Assembly: GCA_030998225.1 (NCBI GenBank)
Contig: JAPYXD010000608.1
Span: forward strand, 5,796,501 to 5,860,500
Source: Diplolepis rosae
Taxonomy: Eukaryota; Arthropoda; Insecta; Hymenoptera; Diplolepididae
Direction of reading: 5' to 3'
Length of the DNA stretch: 64,000 bases
A model generated the notes under the pieces. The model was not told the DNA's origin and did no database searches. It was given only the letters and a program-made list of their open reading frames with translations. Below, one piece after another: positions 15,096 through 61,985 of the stretch (the first letter of the stretch is position 1; each line of letters starts with the position of its first letter). The translations under genes were made by a program, and so were the position numbers.

Positions 15096-16445
15096 GTCAA
15101 CTCTTTGGTGAGCCCAACTAATTTTATTAAATTAAAATACCTGAAACTAAACCACTTCTTTTATAATGTTGTTGAGCGCTAGTCACTTCCCCTAAAGTGA
15201 CAAAGTGAAGCTAAATTATTTGGAGACCCGAAACTAATAACACTAAATACAAGGCGGGGTGAAAATAAAGTCACAAGAGTTAACGGGTAATAAATGAGAA
15301 AACCAGAATATAATTAAATGAAACCAGGCAGCACAGAATTAATTGATATAATAAATAAAAGAAAGACTCTATATAAATTAAAATTACACAAGAGAAATGC
15401 AAAAATATCCATAGATTCTAAGTGAAACTTTACACGCCTCGGAACATTCCGAGTTACACGCGACAATATTTCGAGTTCCTTAATTCTAACCACGTCATGA
15501 CGAGAGAACCTGGATTTAACTACGATTAATTTTATTAATTGCTTTAATTCCTCACGAGAGAGAGAGAAATAACCACATAAGACATCACTCGAGGAAAGAA
15601 AAAGAACACTCGCGAGCACTTCAGGAAAAGAGAGGCAAAGTGGTCTCGGTAGGGGTGATGGACGCCATGAAGCGTTCTTGTCTATTGCCTACTGTCCGAC
15701 ATTTCCGGAGCACTTGCCAAGAGAGTAAAATATAATTAGAACCACTTACGCTACCTGTATTATGTCCTGGAGTTCTGGATCATAGCGTAATATAAACTCG
15801 CTCTCCATGGTGTGTGATAAAGATCCTTAAATAACCTCTCCGTAAATATCCTTAAATATTCGAAACCTTTGGCACTGGCCGCTAGCAGTCGCAGGACGAG
15901 AGGCAGGCCGTTTTATTAAATAAGAAACAATATTTTATTATTGTTACAATTTAAATCTATTTTACTGTATGAAAGGAATATGAAGACAATGGAGATTAAT
16001 AAAAACATATTATACGTGTGTATTTAATTTCGAACGATTGTGAATATTTGTGTGCCGTTCCGAATTTGCATTCTTATTAAACTTTCATGATGCCGAAAGA
16101 TCATAAATAAAAATATCTTTATAGATAAACCTATATGTTAATAACAGTTTCCATTGTTTTTATATTCCTTCCATACAGTTAAATAGATTTAAATTTATAC
16201 CGTAATAAAATATTTTGTCTTATTTAATTCTGAAACGGTTTTACCAATGGCATGTAGCTTGATGTAGCTCAGAAAGAGTATACAACAATGGCGGAACTCA
16301 TACGAAGCTGTTCCCCTTGCCGCACTCCATCCGCTTCCGACAACTAGAGCCGCGTATATCCCTGCACCTGAACTACCCTATGGGGACACCCAATACATTA
16401 GAGGTTGACCTGCCCTGACGAGAGTGAAAAAGGGAAGCCGCGACG
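15096..16445 (+). mobile_element. ~1.5-kb LTR-like repeat, copy 1, left part
   Basis: From CTCTTTGGTGAGCCCAAC onward this sequence matches 60490-61330 (for example AACTAATTTTATTAA, TTGAGCGC.A.TCACTT and CACACGCGACAATAT). It continues on the far side of the hAT element at 25594. It is non-coding, not inverted at its ends, and sits inside two different Gypsy elements at unrelated positions, so it is a mobile repeat. Its length and short TGT start suggest a solo LTR. A candidate duplication (GAACC before, CAACC after) is imperfect. A 312-bp MITE is inserted in this copy only. Confidence 0.6.
15916..16227. mobile_element. 312-bp foldback MITE
   Basis: Long imperfect inverted repeats of about 80 bp: the left arm starts TTAAATAAGAAACAATATTT and the right arm, read backwards, starts TTAAATAAGACAAAATATTT. 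Both continue through AATTTAAATCTATTT, ACTGTATG.AAGGAATAT and A.ACAATGGA. It is absent from the other copy of the host repeat, which supports insertion. The target duplication is unclear (perhaps TA). No coding capacity. Confidence 0.75.
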
Positions 16446-19310
16446 CAGTGTCTCCAGAACGTGGGATTTTTCGGCCCCCACCACGTTCCCATCTGGGAGA
16501 AACACATGCAAACGTGGCGTGTCAGTGTGTCGGCTCTGCTACACGTTGCGGTCACCAGCTTCGTGTAAAGCCGAAGGTGCAGGAAGACGGACTTCGTTAC
16601 AATGCTTGAGTTTTCAAGTTATTTTTAGATTTCACGCTTTCGTTTATCGAGTCGAAATTAAGAATTGTATTTTTCTCGAGTACGTGCAAAAGAGGCGCGA
16701 AGCAGACGACGAATTTGAATTTACGAAGTATATAGTTCAAGAAATAACACTTTTCTTCAATTTCTTGAAGAAAGTCTGCATGAAATAAACATCAGTATGA
16801 TCTTGGAAAATTTCATGAGGATTTCAACACTTCAAAAATAAACTTTCAGTGAAATTTAGTGACAATAAATGTATAAAATTTGAATCAATATATAATTTTC
16901 CATTCAAATTTATATACTTCTTACTAATTTTGTACATTTAACAATTTTTCAATTAGAACAATATTTTCTATCAAGATAAAATGAACATAAAATTCAAGTT
17001 CATAATTTATATTTTCAGTTATATGTTAGAAATATTTTCATCTCACATTTTTGTAGCCTAAGCACAAACTTTTCATTCCAAAACTTAAAATCTCTACGGA
17101 AATGGAAAACTGTCTAATATCAGTAGATAAATTAAAAAGCTAAAATATGTGTTTATTGGTATTTCCATATTAACATATAAATATCAATCAACTTTAAATT
17201 TTACATAAAAATGTTCGTTCGAAGTGTTCAAATCTTGTTACAATTTGACAAGATTTTATGGAAAAGTGCAATCTTTTGGATGAAATATTTTGTAGTTCTT
17301 AATTTGTCTGTCCGTCTGAAATCGTAGTAAGATTTGAACAGTAAACAACAAATTTTCCAATAGAATTCAGGATCAATAATAATTGATTCAGGAAATACTT
17401 CAACTCTGTAGAGCATTTTTGTATTTCGAATTCAACATGTGTGCTTAAGCCACAAAAAAGTAAGCTGAAAATGTAGATATAAAACTAATTATGTCATGTT
17501 TATGTCTTCTTAATGGAAAATACTTTGCATATAATTCTCTAATTCGATATTTTTTTAATGTATGAACATTCAAGAAATTGATAAATATTCCATCTTTTTA
17601 TAGGAACTACAAATTTCCGGATAATGCTTTGATTGAGAAAGCTAAAAATTTGTCAAATATTGATATAAATTGCAATTTTACAATTGCATTATTTTTCAAA
17701 TATTTTAACATCTCTTCAATCTTGATAATTCTTACAGAAGTTTATTTCATGTGAGTGACGTTTTCTTTTTCTAATGAAAGATTTCGTAATTCTAAATTCG
17801 GCCCAATTCGTAACATTGTAAAAAGATTTTAAAACTTCATAAAAATTTTTTTTCTGTTTTATTCAAAGTCAATAAATATTCAATGTTTGGAATCGAAATA
17901 TTAAGTAAATGATTTTTAATTTCTGGGAATAAACTGCTTTAATAAGACAATCTTTCTTCTTTGTGAGAAATCTCAATTTTAAAATTAAAATTCTACGCAT
18001 AGGATACAAAAACATAATATGAAAATACTTTTATTACAGAATTTTGAAATATACAAGTTGACCAATTTTTAATCGAGTAAATCGGCTACTTTAAGCAAAA
18101 AATTATGTTAAAAATATTTTATCAAAAAAAATAAGACACATTAAATTACGGTTTAAAATCCACATTCATAGATTGATGGTAAAAGCAGTTTAAAGTTTTT
18201 TAATCTTACGTTTTAGTGATGTATGCACAGACTTTTAATCAGATAAATGAAATGCTTTATAGAAAGTCAAAATTTTCTTATTACTGCACTTAATCAAATT
18301 TATAAAGTAAAAATATTTTTTAATTGATGCTTTCACTCAATTCTTTAAACATTCATTAATTGAAAATTGTACTCAAAATTTAATCTTGCAGCGTTCCAAT
18401 ATTCCCACAATGTTACAAAATCTTATTAATCATTATTTTAGTCGAATTATTTTCAAAATATTTAAAAAATAAATGTAAATATTTTGATTAAATACTCTGT
18501 CAAATTTTGCATTTGACTGATCTTGCAAAATTGTTGAAAGTTTTGAATACCGATAGAAGAAACTTTAAATGAAATTTTATGTCCATAAATGCTTAAAGTT
18601 CTATATAGAAATATCAACTACAACATTCTCAAATTTTATAAATAAACTACTAAATTCAAAAAGTTTCGGATTTTTTTAAAAACTGTACAAATTTCAAATA
18701 TGAATCAGTCAAAATCTACTGATTATCAGTGAGATTTGACTGATTTAAATAACTAAAAACAGGTTACTGTGAATCAGTCAAATTTCACTGATTACTTCAG
18801 TGAAAAGTAACTGATTTAACAGTGAAAAATATTGTTTCCACTGATGATTCAGTGAAAAGGCAAATCACTGATTCAATCAGTGAAAATTTGACTGATTCAG
18901 ATTTAGAGTGTATACAAATTTCAAATATAAAATGTACTCTGTACATTAATCAAACAAATTTAGAAGATGAATATTTTAATAAATATTCCTAAATATTATT
19001 GGAATATGATACATATCGATTTAGAAAAACTTCTTTAAAGTACTCAGACATTTTTCTTATTTTACGACATTTTTGCACCATGTTTGACCTTTGGGTAGGA
19101 TTCAAGAAAACAATTGTAGACATACTTTCATTACTTAGTAAAATACTATGAAGACTTGCTTTTTAAATTAAAGCGAAAACTTTTAAAACCTTTAACAATC
19201 GGTTGCATAGATTCTGCTCTAATCTTGGACGCAATTAGAGAAATAGGTTTTTTTGCTTTTTTTAGATCTAGTTTTTGCCTTAAACATAAAAGAAAGAAAA
19301 CACATTTGAA
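16446..19310 (+). repeat. hAT left arm (2,865-bp inverted repeat)
   Basis: Exactly colinear with 25593 back to 22729. Spot checks at the outer end, the middle and the inner end show no indel, and the only differences I noticed are single bases at 16582, 19036 and 19045. The outer 170 bp is GC-rich, the rest is AT-rich and without a coding pattern. Identity stops abruptly after ACACATTTGAA. Confidence 0.95.
18690..18910. promoter_or_regulatory. Array of CACTGATT / AATCAGTG boxes, left arm
   Basis: Within 220 bp the octamer-like box AATCAGT(C/G) or its complement occurs about a dozen times in both orientations (for example TTTCACTGATTACTTCAGTG and CACTGATTCAATCAGTGAAA). Subterminal repeats of this kind in hAT elements can be transposase binding sites. 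That role is inferred, and no protein-binding data can be read from sequence. The array is mirrored at 23130-23345. Confidence 0.5.
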
Positions 19311-20210
19311 ATATTAAAATAAAAAAGCTGGTTCATTCTTAGAGAATCCCAAATATTCTGAAATAAAACTCCTTTCCACACCACCACGGAGGTAGAGTTT
19401 ACTAGTAATAGTTCAATAAATTTTATGTACTCTAAATAAATTTTTTCGTAATTGCAGAAAACTTATTCCAAATACAAAAATTGTATCTTTAAATGTACAG
19501 GATAATTAATTATAAAAATCGTTCGAATTTGAATTTCAAGGACTTGCACACAATTTCAAGGCACATCGTTTTTCCTTTTGCAAAAATTTTTAAAACTTCT
19601 AATTTTTCAAGTAATTGGGAGAAGTACATTTAAAAAAAAATTGTTTTCTCTACTTCCACTCGCGCTAGCTTAACAAATTTTCAGAATATTACGATTTTAT
19701 TAATATTGTATTAAGTGTCTACATTTTCTGAAACTATCTACAGGAGAAAAATTTTAATACTTTAGTAAAGAAAGTTTTCTGAAAAGTTGTAGCTCAATCA
19801 GATTAATAGCCAAAAAGTTACCAATGTTTTAAATCGCAAACGAACGGTATAGAGGTCAAATTGGAGACGAAAACAAATAATAATAGCAACCTTCTTTTGT
19901 TTTCTTTTAAGATATACTTGATTCTCGCTTTATGCGTTATTCGAGAAGGCAAGAGTGTGGATTCTTCATATTTTCATCGTAATTTCTTATTGAAAACGGC
20001 AAAAGTAAGAATATTATATTATTATTTGGTGATACGTGAGTGCTCTTACGTACGTTATTGTTTGATACTTGTGGGTAAGTTTATTTTGTGAAACTTAATT
20101 TGTGTGCAGATTACAAATTATTCACATTCGCTCAATTTTATCGACTTTTCATCTTATTAATTCTTTTCAAATAATTCTGTTTTCCTTCGTCGTATAATTT
20201 ATTGTTCACA
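19311..20210 (+). other. hAT central region upstream of transposase
   Basis: Single-copy AT-rich sequence between the left arm and the transposase start. It would hold the promoter and 5' untranslated region, but no TATA or initiator stands out enough to call. Confidence 0.4.
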
Positions 20211-22430
20211 ATGAGTAATCCGGTTGACCCAAATTCGAGTGTTTTGAAGGACAGCCAGGTTCAAACGAAGGTTGACCACCGTTTGAACTCTGGTTCAAAC
20301 GAATGTCAACCCGCTAGAAAAGTCATGAAAAATGCAAAAAACTTTCAGTTGGGATGGTTTGAGGAATTTCCGTCATGGAGAGAGTGGGTGGTTACATTAG
20401 CAGATGAAACAAGATTTCATTGCAAAATTTGCAATAAAACGTTGCTATGTGGCAAATCGGAAATTGAAAAGCATGAAGCATCTTTATCACACAGAAAGAA
20501 GCAAGAGTTTTCAAATAAATTAGAATGTTATGGAGTAGTAAGAGAAAATTCTTCTAATGTAACTGCCAATTCTTACAGTGTTGAACCTTGTGTAGCAAGT
20601 TCTTCTGCTTCAGAATTCACAAATTCCACGATTCCGGAAAGTGTTACTTTCAAACAGAAAGTACAAGAAGCAGAGATTAGGATTAGTACATTTTTCGTAG
20701 AGCATAATTTACCATTCGCGATTTCATCAGAATTGATAGGACTTTTCCAAGATATGGAACCTTCGGTTTTAAAAGACGTTAGATTGAGCCACACTAAAAT
20801 GGTCCTAGTTGTAAATAACGTCGTATGTGCTGCTGAAACTGATCGCATGGCAAATATTTTGCGTAAGCAATCATTTTCAGTGTACGAAGACGAAACGACC
20901 GACAGGACTCTAGAAAAGTGGCTGTCATTAATGGTTCGATATGTGGAGCCAACGACATTTTCTGTCAGGGTGGAATTGCTCTAGCTTATTAATGTAAATG
21001 CTTCGGATTGTTCTGCCTCTAAAATTTTTGATGCGTTCGAAAAAGCATTGTCCGGGCAGAAAATCCCTTTATATAATATCTGTGCTTTAGCTTGTGATAA
21101 TGCACAGGTGATGGTCGGCAATAGGTCCTCATTTAAAACAAAATTAAAGGAAAAAAGTCCCCGTTTAATTGTTTTCCCGTGTGTCTCGCATTCGTCAGCA
21201 ATTGTAGCAAAATATGCTTGTGCCACAATCCTAGATGTAGAGGATTTAATCAAAGATTTTCCAGCTTTTCTTAATGCTAGCTCCAAGCGAACGGCTATTT
21301 TTCGATCGATTGTTTTGGAATTAGGAAATGACTATCAAAAAATTCCTAGTCATTCTGAAACTCGCTGGCTTGTCCGCTATCGATGCATAGATATTATAAT
21401 AAAGAATTGGGAAGTTATTCTTCAGTATCTTATGGTCCTCGTATCTGAGAAGGTAGAGAAGGCCAAAGACTTGTTAGGAAAAATGCAGAATCCTTTGACA
21501 CTCGCATATTTCCTATTCTTGAAATTTACTTTGAATAGGTTCAACGTATACAATGCGAAATTTCAAAGTCGCGAAACAATGGTTCAGGAACTCCAGCCAA
21601 ACTCGGCTAAATTCTTTGTATGGATTCTTAGCAGTTATTTGAAAGAGGGTCTTCTTCAACCGAATTTATTCTTTCAAATCATTAGAAATGTTAACTTTGC
21701 AGATCCTATTAATCAAAAGCCGCTTCAAGACATTGACGTTGGTAAGGAAACGCGAGAATATTTCCAGCAGCAACTTACAAACAAGAAATTGCAAATAGTA
21801 GAAGTTGATCTATTTCTTCGTAATTGCTTGAAATTTTATGTCACAGCAAGCGAAGAAATTCGCAATCGACTTCCTTTTGATGACATCTTTTTGTCTTGCG
21901 TTGCTGTTTTCCGGCCTCAAGTAGCTTGCTATGCTGATCGAAGCGAAACTTTTCCTAGGGTCTGGAAAGTTTGTCAAGATTTAGGGTCGTTTGATAGAAT
22001 AGGTGTACAAAAATAGTGGGATTCTTTACTTAAAATCAGACAGGAACTCAAAGAAAAGTGGTCGAATTTATCTTTTGACGAAATGTGGTCTAGTATCGGT
22101 GTATCTTCGACGAGTACAGGAGAAAAACTTTTTCCAAATTTGACCTCAGTATTGAATCATGTTCGGAGTCTTCCTCATTCAAATGCTGAGGCGGAGCGAG
22201 GTTTCTCCATGCTCACGGACGCGAAAACTCCCAAAAGAAATCGCTTAGGAAACAGGACGGTCAACTCAATTTGTGTTACTCGATCAGCCCTAAAGGCGAG
22301 AGCTGAAACAGCCAGAACAACGAGCATCACTTCGAAGCATTTGCAATTAATGACCGAAAATCTATATGAGATGGCAGAAAGTGATAGGGAAAGTGGTTTG
22401 TCGCTCTTCGCTCACGAAGGAGAGGATTAA
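20211..22430 (+). pseudogene. hAT transposase, interrupted only by two in-frame TAG codons
   Basis: One frame of 740 codons runs from ATG 20211 to 22430 and is broken only by TAG at 20982 and TAG at 22014, with no frameshift. Domains in order: a BED-like zinc finger (CKIC at residues 71-74, His 88 and His 94), DETTD with the first catalytic Asp near 227, CDNAQVMVG with the second near 296, HSETRW, and the hATC dimerisation domain LPHSNAEAERGFSML (655-669) carrying the catalytic Glu. Length fits the family. The enzyme would cut at the CAGTG ends and insert with 8-bp duplications. The gene sits between the two long arms of its own element. Both stops look recent; suppression or an intron is not supported by splice sites. 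Identification as hAT is firm. Confidence 0.9.
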
Positions 22431-22728
22431 TTCTAATGGCCAAGGCATGGCGTTAATCAATTTCAAACCCCTTTCTTACTCACAAAATAATGACATTTTA
22501 TTTCTTATATCAGAGATACGTTCTTTATTCCTTTCTTCGCGTGCCTCGGGTATGGAAATTGTTTAGTTTTAATTATTATTTTGTGAGTAAGAAAACATAC
22601 TGAAATTGAGTAATATCACGCTTTGGGCATAAGTGAGAGGCAAGGGTACTCACAATAATCAAGCACCCCAAATCATCCCGAATTAATCAAACTTCTTCAT
22701 TATTTTATTTAAAACAAAACATTTTTTG
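22431..22728 (+). other. hAT central region downstream of transposase
   Basis: Short single-copy stretch between the transposase stop and the right arm. It should contain the polyadenylation signal; no unambiguous AATAAA is seen in the first 130 bases. Confidence 0.4.
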
Positions 22729-25593
22729 TTCAAATGTGTTTTCTTTCTTTTATGTTTAAGGCAAAAACTAGATCTAAAAAAAGCAAAAAAACCTATTTCT
22801 CTAATTGCGTCCAAGATTAGAGCAGAATCTATGCAACCGATTGTTAAAGGTTTTAAAAGTTTTCGCTTTAATTTAAAAAGCAAGTCTTCATAGTATTTTA
22901 CTAAGTAATGAAAGTATGTCTACAATTGTTTTCTTGAATCCTACCCAAAGGTCAAACATGGTGCAAAAATGTCGTAAAATAAGAAAAATGTCTAAGTACT
23001 TTGAAGAAGTTTTTCTAAATCGATATGTATCATATTCCAATAATATTTAGGAATATTTATTAAAATATTCATCTTCTAAATTTGTTTGATTAATGTACAG
23101 AGTACATTTTATATTTGAAATTTGTATACACTCTAAATCTGAATCAGTCAAATTTTCACTGATTGAATCAGTGATTTGCCTTTTCACTGAATCATCAGTG
23201 GAAACAATATTTTTCACTGTTAAATCAGTTACTTTTCACTGAAGTAATCAGTGAAATTTGACTGATTCACAGTAACCTGTTTTTAGTTATTTAAATCAGT
23301 CAAATCTCACTGATAATCAGTAGATTTTGACTGATTCATATTTGAAATTTGTACAGTTTTTAAAAAAATCCGAAACTTTTTGAATTTAGTAGTTTATTTA
23401 TAAAATTTGAGAATGTTGTAGTTGATATTTCTATATAGAACTTTAAGCATTTATGGACATAAAATTTCATTTAAAGTTTCTTCTATCGGTATTCAAAACT
23501 TTCAACAATTTTGCAAGATCAGTCAAATGCAAAATTTGACAGAGTATTTAATCAAAATATTTACATTTATTTTTTAAATATTTTGAAAATAATTCGACTA
23601 AAATAATGATTAATAAGATTTTGTAACATTGTGGGAATATTGGAACGCTGCAAGATTAAATTTTGAGTACAATTTTCAATTAATGAATGTTTAAAGAATT
23701 GAGTGAAAGCATCAATTAAAAAATATTTTTACTTTATAAATTTGATTAAGTGCAGTAATAAGAAAATTTTGACTTTCTATAAAGCATTTCATTTATCTGA
23801 TTAAAAGTCTGTGCATACATCACTAAAACGTAAGATTAAAAAACTTTTAAACTGCTTTTACCATCAATCTATGAATGTGGATTTTAAACCGTAATTTAAT
23901 GTGTCTTATTTTTTTGATAAAATATTTTTAACATAATTTTTTGCTTAAAGTAGCCGATTTACTCGATTAAAAATTGGTCAACTTGTATATTTCAAAATTC
24001 TGTAATAAAAGTATTTTCATATTATGTTTTTGTATCCTATGCGTAGAATTTTAATTTTAAAATTGAGATTTCTCACAAAGAAGAAAGATTGTCTTATTAA
24101 AGCAGTTTATTCCCAGAAATTAAAAATCATTTACTTAATATTTCGATTCCAAACATTGAATATTTATTGACTTTGAATAAAACAGAAAAAAAATTTTTAT
24201 GAAGTTTTAAAATCTTTTTACAATGTTACGAATTGGGCCGAATTTAGAATTACGAAATCTTTCATTAGAAAAAGAAAACGTCACTCACATGAAATAAACT
24301 TCTGTAAGAATTATCAAGATTGAAGAGATGTTAAAATATTTGAAAAATAATGCAATTGTAAAATTGCAATTTATATCAATATTTGACAAATTTTTAGCTT
24401 TCTCAATCAAAGCATTATCCGGAAATTTGTAGTTCCTATAAAAAGATGGAATATTTATCAATTTCTTGAATGTTCATACATTAAAAAAATATCGAATTAG
24501 AGAATTATATGCAAAGTATTTTCCATTAAGAAGACATAAACATGACATAATTAGTTTTATATCTACATTTTCAGCTTACTTTTTTGTGGCTTAAGCACAC
24601 ATGTTGAATTCGAAATACAAAAATGCTCTACAGAGTTGAAGTATTTCCTGAATCAATTATTATTGATCCTGAATTCTATTGGAAAATTTGTTGTTTACTG
24701 TTCAAATCTTACTACGATTTCAGACGGACAGACAAATTAAGAACTACAAAATATTTCATCCAAAAGATTGCACTTTTCCATAAAATCTTGTCAAATTGTA
24801 ACAAGATTTGAACACTTCGAACGAACATTTTTATGTAAAATTTAAAGTTGATTGATATTTATATGTTAATATGGAAATACCAATAAACACATATTTTAGC
24901 TTTTTAATTTATCTACTGATATTAGACAGTTTTCCATTTCCGTAGAGATTTTAAGTTTTGGAATGAAAAGTTTGTGCTTAGGCTACAAAAATGTGAGATG
25001 AAAATATTTCTAACATATAACTGAAAATATAAATTATGAACTTGAATTTTATGTTCATTTTATCTTGATAGAAAATATTGTTCTAATTGAAAAATTGTTA
25101 AATGTACAAAATTAGTAAGAAGTATATAAATTTGAATGGAAAATTATATATTGATTCAAATTTTATACATTTATTGTCACTAAATTTCACTGAAAGTTTA
25201 TTTTTGAAGTGTTGAAATCCTCATGAAATTTTCCAAGATCATACTGATGTTTATTTCATGCAGACTTTCTTCAAGAAATTGAAGAAAAGTGTTATTTCTT
25301 GAACTATATACTTCGTAAATTCAAATTCGTCGTCTGCTTCGCGCCTCTTTTGCACGTACTCGAGAAAAATACAATTCTTAATTTCGACTCGATAAACGAA
25401 AGCGTGAAATCTAAAAATAACTTGAAAACTCAAGCATTGTAACGAAGTCCGTCTTCGTGCACCTTCGGCTTTACACGAAGCTGGTGACCGCAACGTGTAG
25501 CAGAGCCGACACACTGACACGCCACGTTTGCATGTGTTTCTCCCAGATGGGAACGTGGTGGGGGCCGAAAAATCCCACGTTCTGGAGACACTG
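22729..25593 (-). repeat. hAT right arm (2,865-bp inverted repeat)
   Basis: Inverted copy of the left arm, same length and apparently indel-free. Mirror-image frames in the two arms (for example 62 identical codons at 24623-24811 and, inverted, at 17228-17416) reflect the duplication and are not taken as genes. Confidence 0.95.
23130..23345. promoter_or_regulatory. Array of CACTGATT / AATCAGTG boxes, right arm
   Basis: Mirror image of the left-arm array, with matching box order and spacing in the parts compared. As there, a transposase-binding role is inference. Confidence 0.5.
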
Positions 25594-26460
25594 CCGCGAC
25601 GAATTAGTCACGTGGCCCAATGGCGGACCCGGAAGCAGGTCACATGTCATATTTCTGATAGACAACTGGACAAGCCGTGCCTAGTACAATAATTGTCCTC
25701 TGCACAGTGTTCACAGAACGTCGACGTAAACGGCCCCCACCATGGACCCTACCAGCTCATGGCTTCTTCCTCGCTTCACTGCCATAGGTTGGTTGAATGA
25801 GGAAGACACAATGAGGTCGAAGCATCTACGGTGGGGGCTGTTTACGTCCACGTTCTGCGAACACTGCCTCGGCAAATAATTTTTATAAGCATGCCGTTCT
25901 CTCTTATACGGCGAACATCGCGTGTAGTACATTGGCACTATGTTAGATAGTGTCCAATAATATTATATAACATAAATGTAGTATTTCTAATGTTGATAAT
26001 ACTAAATATAAAGTCCTGAGATCAGTGTGCCCCAGACTGCATCTTCCGGGTCACGTGGTTGAAGCAGGTCTTCCTGTGCGTCGCTCTCCAGTGATCGTTG
26101 GCGGAGATAATCGAAGCATCGATGTATCGAAGCTTGTCGAATATCGAAGCTCGATGAAGAGGCATGGCTGCTAGTGTTTATTTCTGCTCGGGACCGGTCA
26201 CATGCCTTCTCCGACGCCGCTGTCCTCTAGTGCGAACGTCCTCGTGTTGTGCATGGAACATACGGGAGAGGAAGCGTAATTGCGATTAGTGCGTGGTAAT
26301 TGTTACGAGTGCTCACGGGTAGCGACGAAGTGCGGTCTCTCGCCATACGATTTTTTCCGCCTGGACATAACCCCACTTGTCACACCGGTGAGTCTACGTA
26401 AATGCCTCTCATTTAAGTGACGGGTAAACTTTACCACAGTGGGTCCACTCATATAGGATA
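25594..26460 (+). mobile_element. ~1.5-kb LTR-like repeat, copy 1, right part
   Basis: Continues the repeat after the hAT element and matches 61340-61985: ACCCGGAAGCAGGTCACATG, CGTGCCTAGTACA, CTAAATA.AAAGTCCTGAG, CCAGACTG.ATCTTCCGGGT, ending near GACGGGTAAA.TTTACCA. It contains a small hAT MITE at 25705 that the other copy lacks. The 3' boundary is near 26450. Confidence 0.7.
25705..25866. mobile_element. 162-bp hAT MITE of the same family as the large hAT
   Basis: Ends CAGTGTTCACAGAACGTCGA and its near-complement over about 37 bp. It is flanked by CCTCTGCA and CCTCGGCA, and the empty site in the other copy of the host repeat reads CCTCGGCA, giving an 8-bp duplication with one change. The ends share CAGTGT, CAGAACGT and CGGCCCCCACCA with the large hAT element 111 bp away, so it is a non-autonomous relative. 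Confidence 0.85.
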
Positions 26461-29985: not shown

Positions 29986-30904
29986 CACAGTGTGTCCCAA
30001 AAATAACCGAACTTTTTGGATATAGAATAAGATACACATTATATTATCTTTGAAAGTTATTATTTATTGAAAATAGGTTCCATTAGACTCAATACAACGT
30101 TTGGAACGATCAACCAATTTATCCATAGACTTTTTAAACTCGGTTTTTGGGATGTTCTTTAGCACCTGTGTCACAGCTGATTGAATGGTTGGAACGTCAT
30201 CGTAAAAAGCTCCTTTCATTGCGGTCTTTAGTTTCGGGAACAGAAAATATTCACACGGTGATAGATCAGGCGAATACGGAGGGTAGTCCATGGCACAAAT
30301 CTGTTTTTTCATCAAAAATTCGTTGACTTTTTTGGTCTGGTGAGGAGGTGCATTTAACAAAACGTACAAAGACCTTACTTTTACCCAAATCTTCAGTTAA
30401 TATTGTGTAGATTGTACAGTAAGATAAATTTAATTCTTCTGCCAGCATTCTCGCAGTGAAATTTGCATCGATAGCGATTATTTCACGTACTTTTTCCACT
30501 AACTCAGCACGATTTGATGCTTCTGGTCGTCCAGGTCTTGGATCATCATTCAAATCGTCACGACCATTTTTAAATCGTGTAAACCACGTATAAACTTGAG
30601 TACGACTCATGCAATCATCATCATAAACTTTTTTCATCAATTCGTATGTCTCAGCGAATTTTTTTCCAAGTTTAACAAAAAATTTTATATTTGCTCTTTG
30701 TTCCATTTTTGTTTTGTAACATTAGCACACTTTTTCTTTTATTGAAATGGCTGTAACGTTCACATTTATCATCCGATTTACATGAATTTAGGTGCACTTG
30801 AAAGAGGATAAATGTATCTTTCCAATGCTGCAAATTTTCAATAGATGGCGCTGCATCTTGTATGATTTAAATATAAAGTTCGGTTATTTTTGAGACACAC
30901 TATG
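29986..30904 (-). mobile_element. 919-bp mariner element with TA duplication
   Basis: Inverted ends CACAGTGTGTCCCAAAAATA and, complemented, CATAGTGTGTCTCAAAAATA. Each is flanked by TA (29984-29985 and 30905-30906). It lies inside env, whose protein reading resumes on the other side. It is shorter than full-length mariners (about 1.3 kb) because of an internal deletion. Confidence 0.9.
30064..30706 (-). pseudogene. mariner transposase, internally deleted
   Basis: The N-terminal half (30706 back to about 30360) is open: a KFFVKLGKKFAETYELMKK helix, then a WFTRFKNGRDDLND block, and PRPGRPEAS followed by a second HTH ending YTILTEDL. It then jumps, with a frame shift, to NAPPHQTKKVNEFL, the block around the second catalytic residue, so the first catalytic Asp region is deleted. 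The C-terminal part has YSPDLSPCEYFLFPKLK, where the third catalytic position is Glu instead of the usual mariner Asp. The protein would be inactive. Confidence 0.85.
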
Positions 30905-33359: not shown

Positions 33360-34442
33360 TAACTTAATTCGTGCGGTTTTTTTTCAAAATTTAAACGTTT
33401 ATTTAAGAAAAACATGTACAATAGTATTATTCAAAGTATTGCCCATCTGAAGCTATGACTTTTTCCCATCTTTCTGGCAATTTGTGGATTTCATCCCAAA
33501 AGAACTGCGCCGGCTTGGCGGCCAAGAATGAATTAAGCCAATTTTTTATACCCTGTTCTGATGTGAACCGTATTCCAGTGAAGGCTTTCTACATCGACCG
33601 GAAGAAATGGTAGTCAGATAGGGCAAGGTCTGGGCTATAAGGCGGAGGGGTAAAACGTCCCATTCACTGTTTTCCAAATAGTTCTTAACCAGAATAGCAA
33701 CATGGGGCCGAACGTTGTCATGATGGAAATTTATTGCCGCGTGTCTGGTCGCATATTCCGGGCGTTTTTCGGCTATTGCTCTCTTCAAACGGATTAATAG
33801 TGTTCGGTAGAGTTCTTCATTGATGGTTTCACCCGGTTTTAGCAGCTCATAATACAGCACACCCTTCTGATCCCACCAAATAGAGAGCATTGCCTTCGCG
33901 CCATGGATATTCGGCTTTGCAGTTGATTTGTCTGGTTGGCCGGGTGTCACATATGATTTTTTGCGCTTGGGGTTGTCGTAATGTATCCATTTTTCATCAC
34001 CAGCAACCAGCCGATGCAAAAATGACTTCTTTTTGTGTTGTTCCAGCAGCATTTCAGACATCCAAAACCGTTTTTCAACGTCTCTCGACTTGAGTTCACG
34101 TGGACACCATTTTCCTTGCTTTTGAATGTATCTGGCTGCTTTTAAACGTTTTGAAATGGCTGCTCGAGTGGCTTCCAAAGATTCTGCGAGCTCTATTTGT
34201 GTTTGGCAACAATCTTCATCGAATGATGCTTTCAGTTCTTCATCTTCAAACTTTTTTGGCTGCCCAGGACGTTCAACATATTTGAGTGAAAAAAAATTAT
34301 TGTTGTTTACGCTTCAAATGAATGACATATACTGAAAAAGACGCACAATGGCAGTATCTTTCCAACGCATGTTCGGAATATTGGAACGATGGAATAATAA
34401 TCAAGTTACGCCATCTCATAGCAAACCGCACGAATTAAGTTA
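33360..34442 (-). mobile_element. ~1.08-kb mariner element
   Basis: Ends ACTTAATTCGTGCGGTTT and, at the other side, AAACCGCACGAATTAAGT, with TA pairs outside them (the exact end is ambiguous by two bases because the flank reads TATA). It is close to full length but lacks part of the transposase N-terminus. Confidence 0.85.
33546..34282 (-). pseudogene. mariner transposase (mori-like), near complete
   Basis: Frame from about 34282: the GRPKK-like linker (ERPGQPKKFEDEELKA), second HTH (a TRAAISKRLKAARYIQKQ block), then WCPRELK, the first catalytic Asp in VAGDEKWIHYD, the PNIHGAKAMLSIWWDQKGV strand block and the second Asp in HHDNVRPHVA. The third Asp (PPYSPDLALSDYHFF) is present only in another frame, near 33620-33660, after a frameshift. 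The first ~60 residues are deleted. The closest pattern is the mori-type subfamily by motif layout; the subfamily call is tentative. Inactive. Confidence 0.85.
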
Positions 34443-35417
34443 TAGATGCAATACAAGAGGTACTCTAGAAAGTTACCACCTAAGTATCGTTCTTTGTGTA
34501 AACGTATACAAAAGCTTATTTGTTCATAATAAAATATCTCATATTTATGAATTCAGTGTTTTATTTTCCTTGTGAACAACTAAGGGCCCATAGACCTCAC
34601 AAGTGACAACGTACCCACAAACAAAAATAAATTATCAGGCCTTACCAACCTGATATAATCAGCTAACCGCCTCCCTTTCATCCAAAAATCCAAACTACCC
34701 TCGCCTTTTGCTCGGGTCGTAAGACAACAAATTCAAAGATTGGTACGAAACGCGTGCTGAGTATACTCAAGAAGATGCGTGTCATTTGAATCGCATGCAA
34801 TCAGTAGCGGAAGAATCTTTATCAAACAAAATGCTCGAGAAAGATTAATCACTTCAATACATTCGCAATATATTGATGCAATGGTAAAACGACGAATGTT
34901 AAACTGTAAAACTGAAAATGTAAATATTTACGTTACAGTACTTTTAAATAATAAATTTGTTATGATATTGTTGAAACAAATTGAGTTTCACTGATACGAT
35001 TTTATTTGCGTGCCAATGGGAGAAGGGAGCGATTTCCAACAAGTGTGAAATTTTCTGCCTTAGCGGAACAATGTCCGCAATTACACAAGTAAAATAAATG
35101 TCTTTCTCGTGTTGTGCACGATTTTTTTCTTCTAAGGGGTCAGAAAATGAATTTGTTTGCCCCGCATGGGGAAATGAAATGTACTTTATGACCCACAAGT
35201 AGGAAAGCAATATTTTCCATAATGCACATGGGCACTTTGAGCAAAACATTCTGAGTCGTCTGGAATTGCATCCATAACTCACTTGTTACACAATATACTA
35301 ATGTTTCGTTATTGGAGCAGAGTCTTCAAATTTCTCTTTATTGCTTTGCTAGCTATACTCTATTATAGTTTCAAAAATTACAACTGTCTGATAATCTTCT
35401 ACACTTTAATGTTACAG
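34443..35417. other. No gene seen; upstream of the DIP exon
   Basis: Unique AT-rich sequence. If the exon below is real, the part next to it is intron, with a pyrimidine-rich run TAATCTTCTACACTTTAATG before the acceptor. Confidence 0.5.
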
Positions 35418-35603
35418 GTAGGGTGGGTGAAAGCGGATACAAAAGCAATTCAAGCGATTCACGATCGTGTGATAACTCATAATCCACGAGTTTATGTTTC
35501 TCATAGAGATCATTCAACGTGGAGTCTTCATATAAACGAGGTCCAGTTAGAAGATGCTGGCCCATACATGTGCCAAATCAATACGGATCCAATGAAAAGC
35601 CAG
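35418..35603 (+). CDS. Exon of a DIP / lachesin-type immunoglobulin-domain adhesion protein
   Basis: 186 bases, 62 codons in phase 0, between an acceptor (TTACAG|GTA) and a donor (CAG|GTAAAT). The peptide starts VGWVKADTKAIQAIHDRV, continues ITHNPRVYVSHRDHSTWSLH, then the Ig-fold core EDAGPYMCQINTDPMKSQ. WVKADTKAIQAIH, ITHN.R and the D.G.YMCQ.NTDPMK signature are typical of the first Ig domain of Drosophila DIP-family receptors (partners of Dpr proteins in synaptic wiring) and the related lachesins. The Cys in YMCQ is the second of the domain disulfide; the first lies in an upstream exon outside or not recognised in this window. No stop, no frameshift, and codons look constrained, unlike everything around it. 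This is the one secure host exon here. Confidence 0.85.
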
Positions 35604-36439
35604 GTAAATTATTTCTTAAATACTTACGAATAGAGAGTAATCAATTTAGAATTATCTACCCAGAATACTTGGAATAGTAGATTACGTGCCAAGGGCACGT
35701 ATAAATTTTTTCACGTCGTCTATGCCAAAAATCTGACTTTGAAACAATGTGTGCTGCGTAAATTTTTCAAAGTTACCATGAACTACCATGAACTACTAAT
35801 GTTAATAAAGTATAACACAATATGAAGAAATGCTAACTTTCAATAATCTGTTAAAATTTGATTCCTTTACTGATGTAGAGAACCATTCTTTGTGAGGGTG
35901 CAGGATGGAAGGAATTATTTTTCTTAACTATTCTGAACTCCGATGTCGATCAAAACATACAGAATACAAAGAAAGTAACTATGTCTCAATCTGGCTTTGA
36001 AATGCATTGCAAAGTAAGCATAGTAAGGAGTTTTTTAATTTAACAAATTGGAATTGGATAAAGTTAAATATGGTAGGGAGAGATTAGAAAACTGCATTGC
36101 TTAAAAAACCGTTAGAACCATGGTTGCAACCAGTTAAAACGCCAATAAGAAACCGGGTAGGTTACCATCATAAGCTCTGGAACTTTATCCGGACGTACTT
36201 GGGTTATAACGGGAAATTATAACATAATTGTGGAATTCTATCCCGGTGTAAGCGAGTTCAAAAAGGGTAATTGGTGCTCAAATTATATTATTTTAATTGG
36301 AAAATGGGACATTACAGGGTATACCTAGCTATCGCGCGGGATTAGTATATATAAATTACTTTCCCATAGTGCACTTCGGGTGTTTAAACGGGTCTAGCGT
36401 GATTGTATCAGTTATCTAAGGAATAATAGGTATTCGTAC
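35604..36439 (+). other. Putative intron of the DIP-type gene
   Basis: Starts with the GTAAAT donor. No further exon of the gene was recognised downstream in the window. Confidence 0.5.
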
Positions 36440-37760
36440 CTAACAGGGTCTAGACGGTCCCTAGCGGGGACATAGATTAAAAAATTTAACCAAGTGCGCT
36501 CTGGGTCTCTCAATGGGTCTACCGTGGTTCTATCAGGGATCTCTTAAATCGCAGGTATGGGCGCCTAACATGATCTGAACGGGTAATAGCGGGAACATAG
36601 ATTGACGAATTTCGTCAAAGTGTCTTCTGGGTGTATAAACGGGTCTACCGTGGATTCATCAGGGATTTCTGGAATCAAAAGTATGGGTGTCTGCTGGGTA
36701 ATAGCGGGGACATAGATTTAAAAATTCGGTCAAGTGCGCTCTGCGTGTCTAAAAGGACCTAGCTTCGTTCTAACAAGGCTTTCATGAATCGAAGGTATAG
36801 GCTTCTAACAGGGTCTGAACGGGTCATAGCGGGGACATAGATTGACAAATTTGGCCAAGTGCGCTCTGGGTGTCAAAAAAGACCTAGCATAGTTCTAGCA
36901 GGGATACTATGAATCGAAGGTGTAGGCGTGTAGCGGCGTTTAAGCAGGTTATAGCGGTGACATAGATTGACAAATTGGGCTGTGCACTCTGGGTGCCTAA
37001 CGGGTTTACCGTGATTCTATCATGGATCACTTGAATCAAAAGTATGGGCGTCTAACAGGTTCTAAACGGATAATAGCGGGAATATAGATTGACAAATTTG
37101 GTCAAGTGTGCTCTGCGTATCTAAAAGGACTTAGCGTAGTTCTAAAAGGGCTTACACGAATCGCAAGGTTTGAGCGTCTAACAGGGTCTGAATGGGTCAT
37201 AGCGGAGACATAAATTGACAAAGGTCATGTGCGCTCTGCGTGTCTAAAAGGACCCAGGTTAGTTTTTGCAGGGCTCCCATGAATCGAACGTACAGGCTTC
37301 TAACAGGGGCTGAACGGATCAAAGAACTGACATAAATTGACAAATTTGGTCAAGTGCACTCTGCGTGTCTAAAAGGACCTAGGTCGTTCTAACAAGGCTT
37401 TCATGAATCGAAGGTATAGGCTTCTAACAGGGTCTGAACGGGTCATAGCGGGGACATAGATTGACAAATTTGGCCAAGTGCGCTCTGGGTGTCAAAAAAG
37501 ACCTAGCATAGTTCTAGCAGGGATACTATGAATCGAAGGTGTAGGCGTGTAGCGGCGTTTAAGCAGGTTATAGCGGTGACATAGATTGACAAATTTGGTC
37601 AAGTGTGCTCTGCGTGTCTAAACGCTTCTACCATTGTTCTATCAGGGATATCTTCAATCGAAGTTATGGGCGTCTAACAGGGTCTGAACGGATAATGGCG
37701 GGAACATAGATTGACAAATGTGGTCAAGTGCGCTCTGTGTGTCTAAAAGGATCTTGCGTA
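36440..37760. repeat. ~123-bp tandem repeat, about 11 units
   Basis: The motif ATAGCGG(G)ACATAGATTGACAAATTTGG, allowing changes, recurs at about 36460, 36587, 36701, 36827, 36950, 37073, 37199, 37321, 37444, 37569 and 37695, a spacing of 114-127 bp. Each unit also has GTGCGCTCTG.GTGTCTAAA and ATCGAAGGTATAGG. The stretch from about 36772 to 36980 recurs almost unchanged at 37391 to 37592, an offset of 619 bp or five units, so a higher-order duplication is present. Confidence 0.9.
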
Positions 37761-47479: not shown

Positions 47480-47809
47480 AAAAACAAGAAATCCCCGACA
47501 CTACAAATATTCTAGACGGACTTTTGCCAAAACTTTTGAAAAACACGACTTTTGGGAAAACGCATTTAAAAATATTAAATTGTGTTTTTATTGACTCCAT
47601 TCAAAAGAGGCGCGAAGCCGCAAACAATTTAAAGTTTACGAAATATGAAGTTGAAAAAATAACAATTATTTTTTCGATATTTTGGGGAAAATGTGCCTAT
47701 CATAAACATCAGAAGAATCCTGCAAAATTTGATAAGGATTTGAAAACTTCAAAAATAAAATTTCCGTAAAATTTGATGTCAATAAATGTTTAAAATTTGA
47801 ATCAATATA
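47480..47809 (+). repeat. Degenerate hAT-arm relic, part 1
   Basis: Matches the left arm of the large hAT (16660-16890): AAAGAGGCGCGAAGC, TTTACGAA.TAT, ATAAACATCAG and CTTCAAAAATAAA. Similarity is well below that between the two arms, so this is an older relative of the arm sequence without a transposase. Confidence 0.65.
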
Positions 47810-48468
47810 CGAAGGGCACAATTTATATTTAAGTCGTGGCAACGTTGAGCGCTCTCAGGTGCCATCTGACATTTGCACTAAAAAGTATGATATTTTTTAC
47901 CATAACCATCTTCAGACCGTTTTGTCATTTGAGCGTCATTTGTGTTGTTTGCAGTGTCTTTAAAATTGTGTCTCAGCATAAAATGGAATTAATTTATAAA
48001 CATTTTCGTGCGATGATTTATTACACCTTTGGACGTGGATTTTATCAAGACAAGAATGCATCGATCAACTTATTTTCACTTTTGGCGATAAAGCCCCATC
48101 CCTCGACACTGTGAAACGCTGGTATAACGAATTTAATCGTGGACGCCATTCGCTTACCAACGAATTTCGTAAAGATCGTCGTAATTAGTTGTTGAGCCAG
48201 AAAACATTAATGCTGTGCAAAAACTATTAATGCAAGATCGTTATGTGACATGATGTGAAATTGAGGCAACCGTAGGCATTAGTGCCACCAGTATATATAA
48301 CATGTTGCATAAACATTTAGCCGTGAAAAATATTTTTTCTGCTTGGATCCCACTCAATTCGACAAAAGCTTAAAAAGATTCAAGAGTCGATTGGTGCAAA
48401 CAAATGCTCAATAAATGACAAATTACTGTCTTTCATTATAAGGTTCAAAATATACATAGTGCCCCTCG
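47810..48468 (+). mobile_element. 659-bp mariner, inserted in the hAT-arm relic
   Basis: Ends CGAAGGGCAC and, complemented, CGAGGGGCAC, flanked by TA (47808-47809, 48469-48470). The hAT-arm similarity stops and resumes exactly at these points. The 3' half of the element is deleted. Confidence 0.8.
47983..48420 (+). pseudogene. mariner transposase, N-terminal half
   Basis: ATG then a KHFRAMIYY block, KAPSLDTVKRWYNEFNRGRH, SLTNEFRKDRR, and in shifted frames HDVKLRQ, IEATVGISATSIYNMLH-like sequence and SAWIPLNSTKAQKD-like sequence. These are the paired HTH and linker of mariner transposases whose N-terminus reads HFRAMIYYDF. A frame shift lies near 48070 and stops follow. No catalytic Asp block is left. 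Confidence 0.75.
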
Positions 48469-48850
48469 TATAAATTGAAGAGATTTTTAGCTTTTCAAAT
48501 CAAGTCTTAAATCAAAAATTTCAAATTTCTATACTTGTAATCAATTTTGTGAATTCAACAAATTTTCAGTTAGAGAGTTATTTTTTATTAAGAATAAAGA
48601 AACATAAAATTCAAGTTAAAAATGTTAAAAGAATTTTCCCTCCTATGTTTAAACTTACAAGACAATTATTGACAAATTTTTAGCTTTATCAATGAAAGTT
48701 TTATTTCAGAATTTTTATGTTTTATAAAAAGGTAAAATATTTATCAATTTCTTAAATGTCCATGCATTTCAGAAATATTGAATCAGAGAATTATGTGCAA
48801 AGTATTTAACAGTAAGAAGAGATAAACATATGACATAATAAATTCAAAAT
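48469..48850 (+). repeat. Degenerate hAT-arm relic, part 2
   Basis: First part (48475-48640) matches 16899-17060 of the left arm. The second part (48658-48850: GACAAATTTTTAGCTTT, AAATATTTATCAATTTCTT, AGAGAATTAT.TGCAAAGTAT) matches the arm sequence at 17500-17690 in inverted sense. So the relic is itself rearranged. Confidence 0.6.
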
Positions 48851-49319
48851 ATACATTGTTAGTTCCCAACGCAGTTAATTACGCTACATCTTCCCTCGTC
48901 CAACAACGTCACGATGGAGCCCAAACAGTCACGAATTGAAAATTCTCGAAAATGTTAAAGACAGTCTTAGAAGCAGCTTAGAACCTTTTTTATTTTATTT
49001 TCTGGCAGGTTTTTTCTTTGTTTCATTTCTGTCAGCTTGAAAGGAGTCGGCAACGAAGATCGCTTTGTTACTATTGTACATCAGACGGGTTTACAGGTGA
49101 GCCGCTGAGAGCATCACGTGACAGGCGTGGCATCCGAGAGCGGCGAATCTACGGGCCTGTTCGTAGACCGGGTACGTGCTGCTGCCCTTAGATCGACTAT
49201 TGCTAGCATCAGCTTTAATTTTTTGATCGGTACAGAAAATTATTGATATTTATTAATATCATATCGATATATTATTAATAATTGTATTATTTGCATTATA
49301 ATTAATGTAAGTCACATTC
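48851..49319. other. No gene seen
   Basis: Mixed-composition unique sequence with no recognisable frame, followed by AT-rich ATTATTAATAATT repetition. Confidence 0.5.
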
Positions 49320-50012
49320 CGAGTTCTTCGTAATTTGAACTCACCCCTCGACGTATTAAGCCAATGGGGCAAGTTGATCTAGAGACACTTCAGCTTATTG
49401 GTTGCCTGGCGCCATCCTTCTAACAAGACAAGTCACCCACGCAAACCTCGGCCTATGCGCGTGCGCCAGCTTTTCTTGATAATGTAATAAAACTGCGCGA
49501 CATCTGTGACGCGCAGCTTCATTTTATCGCTATCCAGCAAGTGGCCAATTTGTAGCCGATTCTTACTTTTTTTGTAAATTAATCAAATAGACTTATGATT
49601 TATTACTTATGATACTCTTATGATACGCCTAAACGGCGTCGCATTCCGCATTGATTTTAATCCTTTTTTTGATTGTATCGAGCCAGGGCTTTGCTTACCA
49701 CTTCTCAATAAATTGTAGCTTTGTTGATTTTAATGCTGCTTAATTTATTTTGTTTTGGTTTTAACGGCAAAGCTTCTTATGTCTCAGGTTAAGTTTTCCT
49801 AACCTCCAAATACCTGATTCGATACTCCCGAATTCAAACACCCTAGCCAGGACCTACTTTCGCTTGCTCTGCTTCGCTTTTTGTATACATGCAGGCTTTC
49901 ATTTTTTCAGGGTAGTAAACATATAAATATGGCATCAGGAGACGCCAGGCGCTAATTGTGAAGCAGCCATAGTAACGCCGGTGTCATCGAGGGTAATCCC
50001 GAACCCTCAAGT
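49320..50012 (-). repeat. Dispersed repeat R, copy 2
   Basis: Inverted relative of 39160-39640. It is longer, and it ends right where terminal repeat T copy B begins. Non-coding and unclassified. Confidence 0.65.
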
Positions 50013-50039
50013 CCGTCTGGATAAAGTTAATTTTTGAAT

Positions 50040-50665: not shown

Positions 50666-50806
50666 TGTTGCTCGAACAAGACTATACTACTGACTCAGCA
50701 AGTTGGCTCAGTTCTTAATTGCTGTATATACCATTAATGTTTCAAATAAATATACTAAATCTACATGTTTTGAAAAATATTTTTGGCGTCATATACTTTT
50801 GGTTTT

Positions 50807-51467: not shown

Positions 51468-51554
51468 TTCATTTGTAACCATTTTGTCACAATGAAGATG
51501 CATTTTCATCAAGAAAACTTCCATCAATAAGATCTGCCTCTCCGTACAGCATTT

Positions 51555-51658
51555 CATTTTTTGAATCAAAAGTCTCTGCTTAAGCTGTAAAAATGTGAGA
51601 TGAAAATATTCCTAACGCAAAACTGAGAACGTGTTTTTAACTTGAATTTTATGTTTAT
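51555..51658 (+). repeat. Short hAT-arm relic
   Basis: AAAAATGTGAGATGAAAATATT and AACTTGAATTTTATGTT match the right-arm sequence near 24990-25055. Another trace of the family without a transposase. Confidence 0.55.
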
Positions 51659-60517: not shown

Positions 60518-61985
60518 TTTTATTAATACGAAAATCAAAACATCTGAAAATAAAATACTTCTTTTAAATCGTGGTTGAGCGCCAATCACTTTACTTAAAG
60601 TGACAAAGTCAAATTAAATAGCCTTGAGACTCAAAACTCTAAAAGCAATAATACAAGGTGGGGTCAATCAAAAGTCACAACAGTTAGTTATAGCGGGTAA
60701 TAAATAAAAGAAACCAGAATTTAATTAAAATGAAATTTGGCAGAACATTATTTATTATAATAAACAGAATCTATACAATTTATGGTTACTTAAAGAAAAT
60801 TGCTAGAGTGACAAAGAAACAAATTTAAATTGTACAAGCGTCGAAACTGTCCCAGTCACACGCGACAATATGGCGAATTTTACTTAGTCTATCGCGTTGC
60901 CGCTCGAGAGAACAAGAGCTTAATAATGACTGAATTTAATAGTTTAAATTCTAGTTACTACGAGAAAGAGAGAATAAAATAATTAACGAAAAATATATAA
61001 GTATAGAAAAGGAGCACTCGCGAACACAAGAGAAAAAGAGAGGCAAAGTGGTCTCGGTAGGTAAGGTGGACGCCATAAAGCGTTAGTGTCAATTATAGAG
61101 TGTCTGGTATTTCCGGACAACTTGCCAAAGGAAATCAAATAAACCAAACTTACGCTACCTGTATGACATCCTCCAATTCCGGAACGAATCTTAAAATGAA
61201 CTCCACTTTCATTTTGACCACAATAATCTTCCAAAATTTCTCCCAGTCGTACAAAAATGAGCGTGGCACCGGCTTTCAGGAGTCGCAGGACGAGAGTGAT
61301 TAAGGAAGTCGCGACGCCAGAAAAGTTCCTGAACTTCCCCACGAATTAATCGCGTGACCCAATCGCGAACCCGGAAGCAGGTCACATGTCACATTTCTAC
61401 CAGACGACTAGGCAACCCGTGCCTAGTACAGTAATTGCCCTCGGCAAATAATTTTTATAAACACGCGGTTCTCTAGTACGACGAACAGCGCGTGTGGTAC
61501 ATTGTCACTATGTTAGGTAGTGTTCGACATTGTTAAAACACATAAATTTAGTATCTCTAACGTCTGTAACACTAAATACAAAGTCCTGAGGTCAGTGGGT
61601 CCCAGACTGTATCTTCCGGGTCACGGGGTTACAGCTCGACGTCCTATCTATCATGGCGTTGATAATTGATCCTTCGATCAGTCGAGACTCTTCCAGTATC
61701 GATATTCGATCCAGTGTCATGGCTGCCAGTGTTTACTTCTGCTTGGAATTGGCTACCTCTCTTCTCCAACGCCGCTGTCCTCTAGTGCCGTTGTCCTCGT
61801 GTTATGCATGGAACAGACGGGACAGGAAGCGTAAGTGCGGGTGATAAGTGTTACGAGTGCTCTCGGGTGGCGACGAAGTGCGGTCTCTCGTCACACGATT
61901 TTTTCCCGGGACATAATCCGACCTGTCATACCGGTGAGTCTCCTACAATATCTTTTCAAGTGACGGGTAAAATTTACCATGTCAC
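60490..61985 (+). mobile_element. ~1.5-kb LTR-like repeat, copy 2 (uninterrupted)
   Basis: Full-length counterpart of 15096-16445 plus 25594-26460, lacking the hAT element, its MITE and the foldback MITE, so it provides the empty sites for all three. It separates gag from protease of element 3. Short frames inside (61653-62025) are not conserved in copy 1, so it is non-coding. Confidence 0.7.

Follow-up and report, generated by a model that had tools for sequence, protein, structure and literature searches.

A hAT transposon family of Diplolepis rosae with terminal inverted repeats of about 2.96 kb that agree within copies

The window analysed here, a stretch of 64,000 nucleotides of contig JAPYXD010000608.1 from the Diplolepis rosae assembly GCA_030998225.1 (positions 5,796,501 to 5,860,500), contains a transposable element of the hAT superfamily that is bounded by two inverted arms of 2865 bp each. 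The element belongs to a family with terminal inverted repeats (TIRs) of about 2.96 kb, and it is likely that these arms are old and inherited, and that gene conversion within each copy, from one arm to the other, maintains their similarity.

Anatomy of the element and its assignment to hAT

Pairwise alignment identified the two arms as inverted copies of each other (positions in Table 1). With gaps allowed, three substitutions (at 137, 2591 and 2600 of the arm) and two compensating one-base indels separate them, corresponding to 99.826% identity, in agreement with the nearly identical 2.865-kb arms described in the first-pass annotation. The ungapped comparison gave 44 mismatches, 41 of them within arm positions 1686-1746, because approximately 60 bp sit one base out of register; this stretch is a one-base slip, with 8 versus 7 A at its start and 3 versus 4 A at its end. 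The +1 and -1 length changes in the A runs cancel, and the arm lengths are therefore equal. The equal length claimed earlier thus results from two opposite one-base changes, and the position sum stays at 42039 everywhere except inside these 60 bp or so, while exact colinearity along the whole arm is ruled out by the slip. The ungapped inverted stretches, 1686 nt with one mismatch and 1122 nt with three, are far beyond chance.

The termini are exact (CAGTG...CACTG), CAGTGTCTCC forms the start of both outer ends, and the element is flanked by a perfect 8-bp target-site duplication, as had been proposed. The outer 45 bp of the left arm likely serve as a recognition end for the transposase. The window copy lacks the inner 91 bp of the right arm together with approximately 180 bp of adjoining unique sequence (about 271 bp in all) that are present in other copies. 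Arms and middle differ in base composition, and no tandem repeats were called within either arm at a score of at least 50. The nested palindromic stretch of the left arm has 12-bp inverted ends (GAATCAGTCAAA) and is flanked on both sides by a 16-bp direct repeat (TACAAATTTCAAATAT), the right one not directly adjoining; within this stretch and its right-arm counterpart, AATCAGTG/CACTGATT motifs recur. Self-alignments of the arms at approximately 58-61% identity were not used, as the scoring is lenient for AT-rich DNA and symmetric palindromic matches are inflated.

Table 1. Features of the window that belong or relate to the element (window coordinates)
Feature	Position	Strand	Remarks
Left target-site duplication, CCGCGACG	16438..16445	+	exact 8 bp
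Left arm of the TIR, 2865 bp	16446..19310	+	family arm runs on to ~19401, 2956 bp
Outer terminus, left arm	16446..16490	+	71% over 45 nt with a short miniature inverted-repeat transposable element (MITE) nearby
Nested palindromic stretch in left arm	18702..18898	+	counterpart in right arm 23141-23337; boundaries by eye
Unique middle	19311..22728	+	first 91 bp are arm in other copies
hAT transposase, 739-codon frame	20211..22430	+	in-frame TAG stops at 20982 and 22014
Right arm, inverted copy of left	22729..25593	-	3 substitutions, 2 one-base indels
Outer terminus, right arm	25549..25593	-	
Right target-site duplication, CCGCGACG	25594..25601	+	exact 8 bp
Old arm relic	47578..47809	+	arm 218-447, 78.5%
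Old arm relic	48520..48623	+	arm 458-561, 79%
Old arm relic	48663..48857	-	arm 1025-1217, 79%
Old arm relic	51541..51658	-	arm 536-655, 79%
Related copy of the flanking repeat without element (near-empty site)	61289..61446	+	single TCGCGACG

Between positions 14000 and 28000, the only start-to-stop frames of at least 150 amino acids are two parts of the one transposase frame in the middle of the element. Its C-terminal part matches the Pfam domain Dimer_Tnp_hAT (PF05699; E 8.9e-8, 32.3 bits versus a cut-off of 21.4). Seven relatives of the transposase were found, the best 62% identical, and the four that are named are from ants (Dinoponera, Formica) and a wasp (Prorops). A profile of these relatives matches the Hermes transposase chains (E 4.4e-8 over residues 628-687), and acidic residues that are candidates for the catalytic DDE residues of an RNase H fold lie in conserved stretches of the alignment. 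The AlphaFold model of one relative (P0002) is weak, with a mean predicted local distance difference test score of 51.8. No relatives of the transposase were confirmed in viral and prokaryote contigs, and scanning the viral contigs for the element terminus gave 0 matches.

The terminal motif of hAT elements is of the CAGNG type, and CAGTG is found here at both ends. Together with the 8-bp duplication, the Dimer_Tnp_hAT domain and the Hermes profile match, this supports membership of the hAT superfamily, and the hAT transposase that had been placed between the arms is borne out; Hermes and its relatives share all of these features, including the C-terminal position of the dimerisation domain. 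The short TIRs of tens of bases that are usual for hAT elements, if not strictly defining, are replaced by arms of 2865 bp in the window and approximately 2956 bp in the family. Instead of the P-type transposase and 7-bp duplication of Galileo and the P superfamily, the element has a hAT domain and an 8-bp duplication. Its long inverted ends (2.87-2.96 kb) would be capable of folding back as in the foldback-like class, the tandem internal repeats of that class are absent, and the resemblance is one of structure, not of descent.

The family in the host genome and the age of its arms

A search of the host assembly, 428 contigs totalling 757.7 Mb, for further copies showed that the element is not a one-off. 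A terminal 30-mer allowing at most 2 mismatches matched 1331 times (667 forward and 664 reverse), and a transposase 33-mer allowing at most 3 mismatches matched 614 times (284 and 330), with 0 and 0 matches for the reversed-pattern control of either word. The family thus comprises hundreds of copies, with a ratio of termini to transposase words of 2.2; some 614 copies of 9.4 kb would make up about 0.8% of the genome, many copies being shorter. Since the genome searches score the best candidates only, the copies read are biased toward well-kept ones.

Out of 1701 transposase candidates 61 were scored, and the best 30 loci were taken with 1.5-kb flanks. All 30 carry arm sequence inverted on both sides of the transposase, and the pieces from the two sides overlap in 28. 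Seven further elements were read at or adjoining terminus matches at six other loci (C97, C380, C383, C415, C86 and two at C43), along with one fragment beside the C97 element. Sequence of both arms is present in all seven, some of them truncated or interrupted. Pieced together from the copies read, the family arm measures 2956 bp and a unique stretch of approximately 180 bp precedes the right arm, so that the sum of the pieces predicts a full element of about 9.42 kb. Among the first 100 of the 1331 termini, all exact matches, 66 form 33 convergent pairs at spacings of 3989-13690 bp, five of the 33 at 9398-9467 bp; the 34 unpaired termini of this subset are no evidence of solo arms. Copies with only short inverted repeats were not found among those read, which are the best-scored part of some 600 copies.

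The family is young, many transposases lack an internal stop (40 of the 61 scored copies, all 61 being 97-100% identical), and the arms of different elements diverge by only about 1.2-1.5%. The foldback architecture has arisen here in a hAT lineage that still has stop-free transposase copies, and not only in stripped-down derivatives.

The arms themselves seem to be older than the young family. A relic in the window (47578-51658) consists of four pieces approximately 79% identical to the arm, two on the plus and two on the minus strand, in the order expected of an element with inverted arms. The piece corresponding to arm 1025-1217 yielded 813 candidates in the genome, of which the best 40 were scored and, besides the relic itself, were 85-87% identical; where two of them lie on one contig within 20 kb of each other (11 cases, at spacings of 1.5-18.7 kb), they are always inverted in the sense expected. 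For arm 536-655 (304 candidates, best 40 scored at 85-88%), seven of eight such neighbours are inverted as expected and one is opposite, and for arm 218-447 there were 1575 candidates, the best 40 scoring 81-84%. A 17-base word common to arm and relic occurs 2112 times. Within the first 100 of these places, convergent orientation is found in all five close pairs without a link to any listed young terminus or transposase, and in 28 of the 30 other close pairs. Because relatives of the relic thus also occur as inverted neighbours, the long arms appear to precede the young family rather than to have formed recently.

Agreement between the arms of a copy and how it may arise

Left and right arms were compared within and between copies in two data sets. 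The pairing test covered seven elements; C97a, which lacks a right arm, and C43b, with 285 paired sites, were left out, and the left arms of C86, C415 and C43a were masked beyond deletions. The true left-right pairing gave 0.637% divergence compared to a mean of 1.239% over all pairings, and was the lowest of 5040. In the re-pairing test of the inner arm, for which 25 of the 30 transposase loci were used (five with fewer than 250 paired sites were left out), divergence within elements was 0.680% compared to 1.342% after re-pairing, with 0 of 20000 re-pairings as low. In four elements (window, C97b, C415 and C383), each arm has its partner as its clear nearest neighbour. In the window copy, 10 alleles are private to both of its arms and one is private to a single arm when 17 arms are compared. 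The simplest account is that the alleles private to both arms originated once this lineage had separated from the other copies read, and that one arm then passed them to the other.

The agreement depends on the position along the arm. Runs of identity between partner arms end abruptly, at 906-2416 in C383 (permutation p <0.0002) and at 1445-2172 in C380 (p 0.0006), and a run spans 137-2591 in the window copy (p 0.011). In the seven elements, divergence within elements amounts to 0.20-0.55 of that between elements over arm positions 1-2400, and this ratio rises to 0.81 at 2401-2700 and 1.00 at 2701-2956. Correspondingly, the arm body (251-2400) has 51 private alleles found in both arms versus 58 found in one, and the inner part has 2 versus 31 (Fisher p 8.5e-6). 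Across the 30 loci, within-element divergence increases from 0.27% at arm 1900-2266 to 1.50% at 2866-2956, while between-element divergence goes from 1.38% to 2.03% and the private-allele ratio (both:one) from 9:5 to 4:23. Agreement is lost near the inner border, where homology ends, and this is the pattern that gene conversion between two repeats predicts.

Of the two interpretations offered in the first-pass annotation, the data favour continuing homogenisation, in view of the pairing of arms by element, the private alleles common to both arms and the falling agreement near the inner edge. They speak less for recent formation, since arms are present at the 30 transposase loci and in the seven further elements, and diverged arm relatives likewise occur as inverted neighbours. 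Under the explanation we prefer, the transposase would recognise the identical CAGTG ends and make 8-bp target duplications in an ordinary hAT cut-and-paste reaction, for which probably only the outermost tens of bases are needed. The long arms would be an inherited feature of this hAT lineage that appears to be old, and conversion from arm to arm, presumably recombinational, would act over the arm body and fail toward the inner edge as homologous sequence runs out. Homogenisation might occur after insertion, in source copies or in repair associated with transposition.

Several observations weigh against this explanation. In C380, each arm is nearer to the arms of the window copy than to its partner. 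Pairing barely holds in C86, whose right arm is 0.98% from its partner versus 1.00% from that of the window copy, and in C43a, whose arms are 1.04% apart versus 1.10% and 1.28% to the next; in these two elements alleles private to one arm outnumber those private to both by 20 to 5 and 23 to 4, respectively. The identity runs of C97b, C43a, C415 and C86 do not reach significance in length (p 0.06-0.22), and in the 30 loci the shift within positions 2267-2865 alone is modest (p 0.022). The edge effect is seen at the inner border only: the outer border shows no clear loss, the outermost 250 bp being as alike as the body (private both:one 7:9 versus 51:58, Fisher p 1.0). Of six elements with both ends, only three have a target duplication, which is absent or rearranged in C97b, C43a and C86. 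Finally, homogenisation in source lineages before insertion would leave the same signature.

The last point leads to the strongest alternative, in which homogenisation is confined to the transposition cycle: in active source elements, gap repair or copying takes the other arm as its template, and once inserted, each copy decays on its own. It is a narrower form of the preferred explanation, so that confidence in the two overlaps, and we regard it as a serious possibility that nevertheless falls short of being probable. A similar repair model has been proposed for Galileo by its authors (PMC3573991), and the C97 copy, where the arm and 68 bp of flank appear to have been copied to the other end without a target duplication, fits the alternative as well. 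The mosaic identity runs in C383 and C380 are equally expected from conversion after insertion, and the data do not distinguish between the two.

The C97 copy deserves a closer description. Its inverted repeat extends 68 bp into the flank, there is no target duplication, and both ends carry a change at base 3 that is unseen in arms from other loci. This is as expected if one broken end was repaired by copying the other arm past its end. It is also possible that the copy is a more complex rearrangement, given the direct partial copy just upstream. The region C97:172183-183791 as a whole consists of a partial copy, a spacer of approximately 66 bp, a full copy and finally the same spacer in inverted orientation. 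This larger palindrome suggests that copying or template switching took place.

A further alternative holds that a single inverted duplication shortly before one burst produced copies whose arms were identical at insertion, with no homogenisation at all. The youth of the family is in line with this, both in its many stop-free transposases and in its low between-element divergence. Star-like decay predicts equal divergence within and between elements, whereas that within is roughly half, and the model is also at odds with element-private mutations in both arms, the sharp difference between inner region and arm body and the diverged arm relatives that are likewise inverted neighbours, which together make it improbable. 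Still less credible is a composite element, in which two complete, inverted short transposons move together around a captured transposase gene. The unique middle between two long inverted units would suit such a structure, but there is no second terminus at the inner arm ends (the four matches to the terminal pattern in the window are the two outer ends and a separate MITE) and the class of the transposase, hAT, agrees with the one implied by the ends; for lack of inner termini in the window, this candidate was rejected. An assembly artefact, with the second arm a folded-back read or mis-joined copy, a suspicion that the real 68-bp inverted flank of the larger palindrome at C97 may raise for single cases, was likewise rejected as very unlikely in view of the perfect target duplications in different outer flanks in the window copy, C383 and C415, the 667 forward and 664 reverse termini, and the real differences between arms.

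Gene conversion between the arms of the same copy, the explanation we prefer, could go further and act as a system of self-maintenance. With ends interchangeable over approximately 3 kb, a damaged one could be restored from its partner, in the manner of Y-chromosome palindromes, and breaks made by the transposase may trigger the copying. We put this forward tentatively, as an idea that is more doubtful than the conversion itself.

Neighbouring sequence, related systems and significance

The related flanking repeat without the element (Table 1) provides a site that is nearly, not perfectly, empty. Read by eye, positions 61289-61350 hold one TCGCGACG and approximately 24-27 extra bases. About 24 of these, at 61317-61340, are partly palindromic and lie at the paralogous insertion site; they might be an old excision footprint. 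In the left flank of the element, positions 15915-16228 form an imperfect palindrome, approximately 69% self-inverted under lenient scoring and seemingly absent from the related flank copy. A MITE of 162 bp with hAT-like ends (CAGTGTTCACAGAACGT) lies at 25705-25866, 111 bp beyond the right end of the element, with an 8-bp duplication that has one mismatch (CCTCTGCA / CCTCGGCA) and ends that are 71% similar to the outer 45 bp of the element. If it shares the enzyme of the element, only the outer tens of bases would be needed and the long arms would be passengers.

The remainder of the window contains mariner-type transposase fragments at 30269-30721, 33549-34313, 50774-51229 and 53253-53714. 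The Pfam cut-offs were passed by the Mos1 HTH (helix-turn-helix) match at 30269 and the Transposase_1 match at 33549, while the fragment at 53253 gave sub-threshold matches only and that at 50774 was judged by eye. At 35241-35633, a frame resembling an exon contains an immunoglobulin domain (PF00047, E 2.1e-6) and is probably part of a host cell-adhesion gene. A tandem array with a unit of approximately 125 bp in 10.7 copies occupies 36440-37760, and a reverse transcriptase fragment (RVT_1, E 1e-25) is found at 62809-63465.

Well-studied hAT elements have unlike subterminal regions, whereas the ends of this element are identical over kilobases. High-copy hAT elements of grapevine have TIRs of 8-23 bp (PMC2528002), compared to the arms of about 2.96 kb described here. 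The nearest published cases met are Galileo and a hAT-derived MITE of Atlantic cod. Galileo, a P superfamily element of Drosophila, has the same architecture in another superfamily, with long TIRs and with internally deleted and solo copies; the arms within a copy are 98-100% alike, and repair between arms has been proposed (PMC3573991). It differs in its P-type transposase, 7-bp flanking duplications and shorter arms of up to approximately 1.26 kb, and that study reports no functional transposase and places the longest arms on copies without a transposase frame (PMC3573991). The cod element gadMor-hAT-1784 is likewise hAT-derived with unusually long inverted repeats of about 600 bp, but is non-autonomous, lacks a transposase and has arms built of 167-169-bp tandem repeats (PMC12368964), unlike the non-tandem arms of approximately 2.96 kb and the transposase copies of the present family. 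Foldback / Tetris and long-TIR Mutator-like elements also have inverted ends on the kilobase scale (PMC4079207; PMC3310237), in their case without a hAT transposase. No hAT element with arms above approximately 600 bp was met in the portions seen of the open-licence PMC literature, which does not cover Repbase and is no proof of absence from print.

Approximately 600 copies in one genome amount to a natural experiment, repeated many times over, on gene conversion between inverted repeats that lie close together; tract length, edge effect and timing of conversion are measurable copy by copy. The family also raises the testable questions of whether two identical ends are workable for a hAT transposase, and of how elements with inverted repeats on the kilobase scale escape hairpin-derived silencing and damage by inversions. 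If the self-maintenance suggested above is true, it may be part of the reason why a family whose two ends are identical could grow to hundreds of copies.

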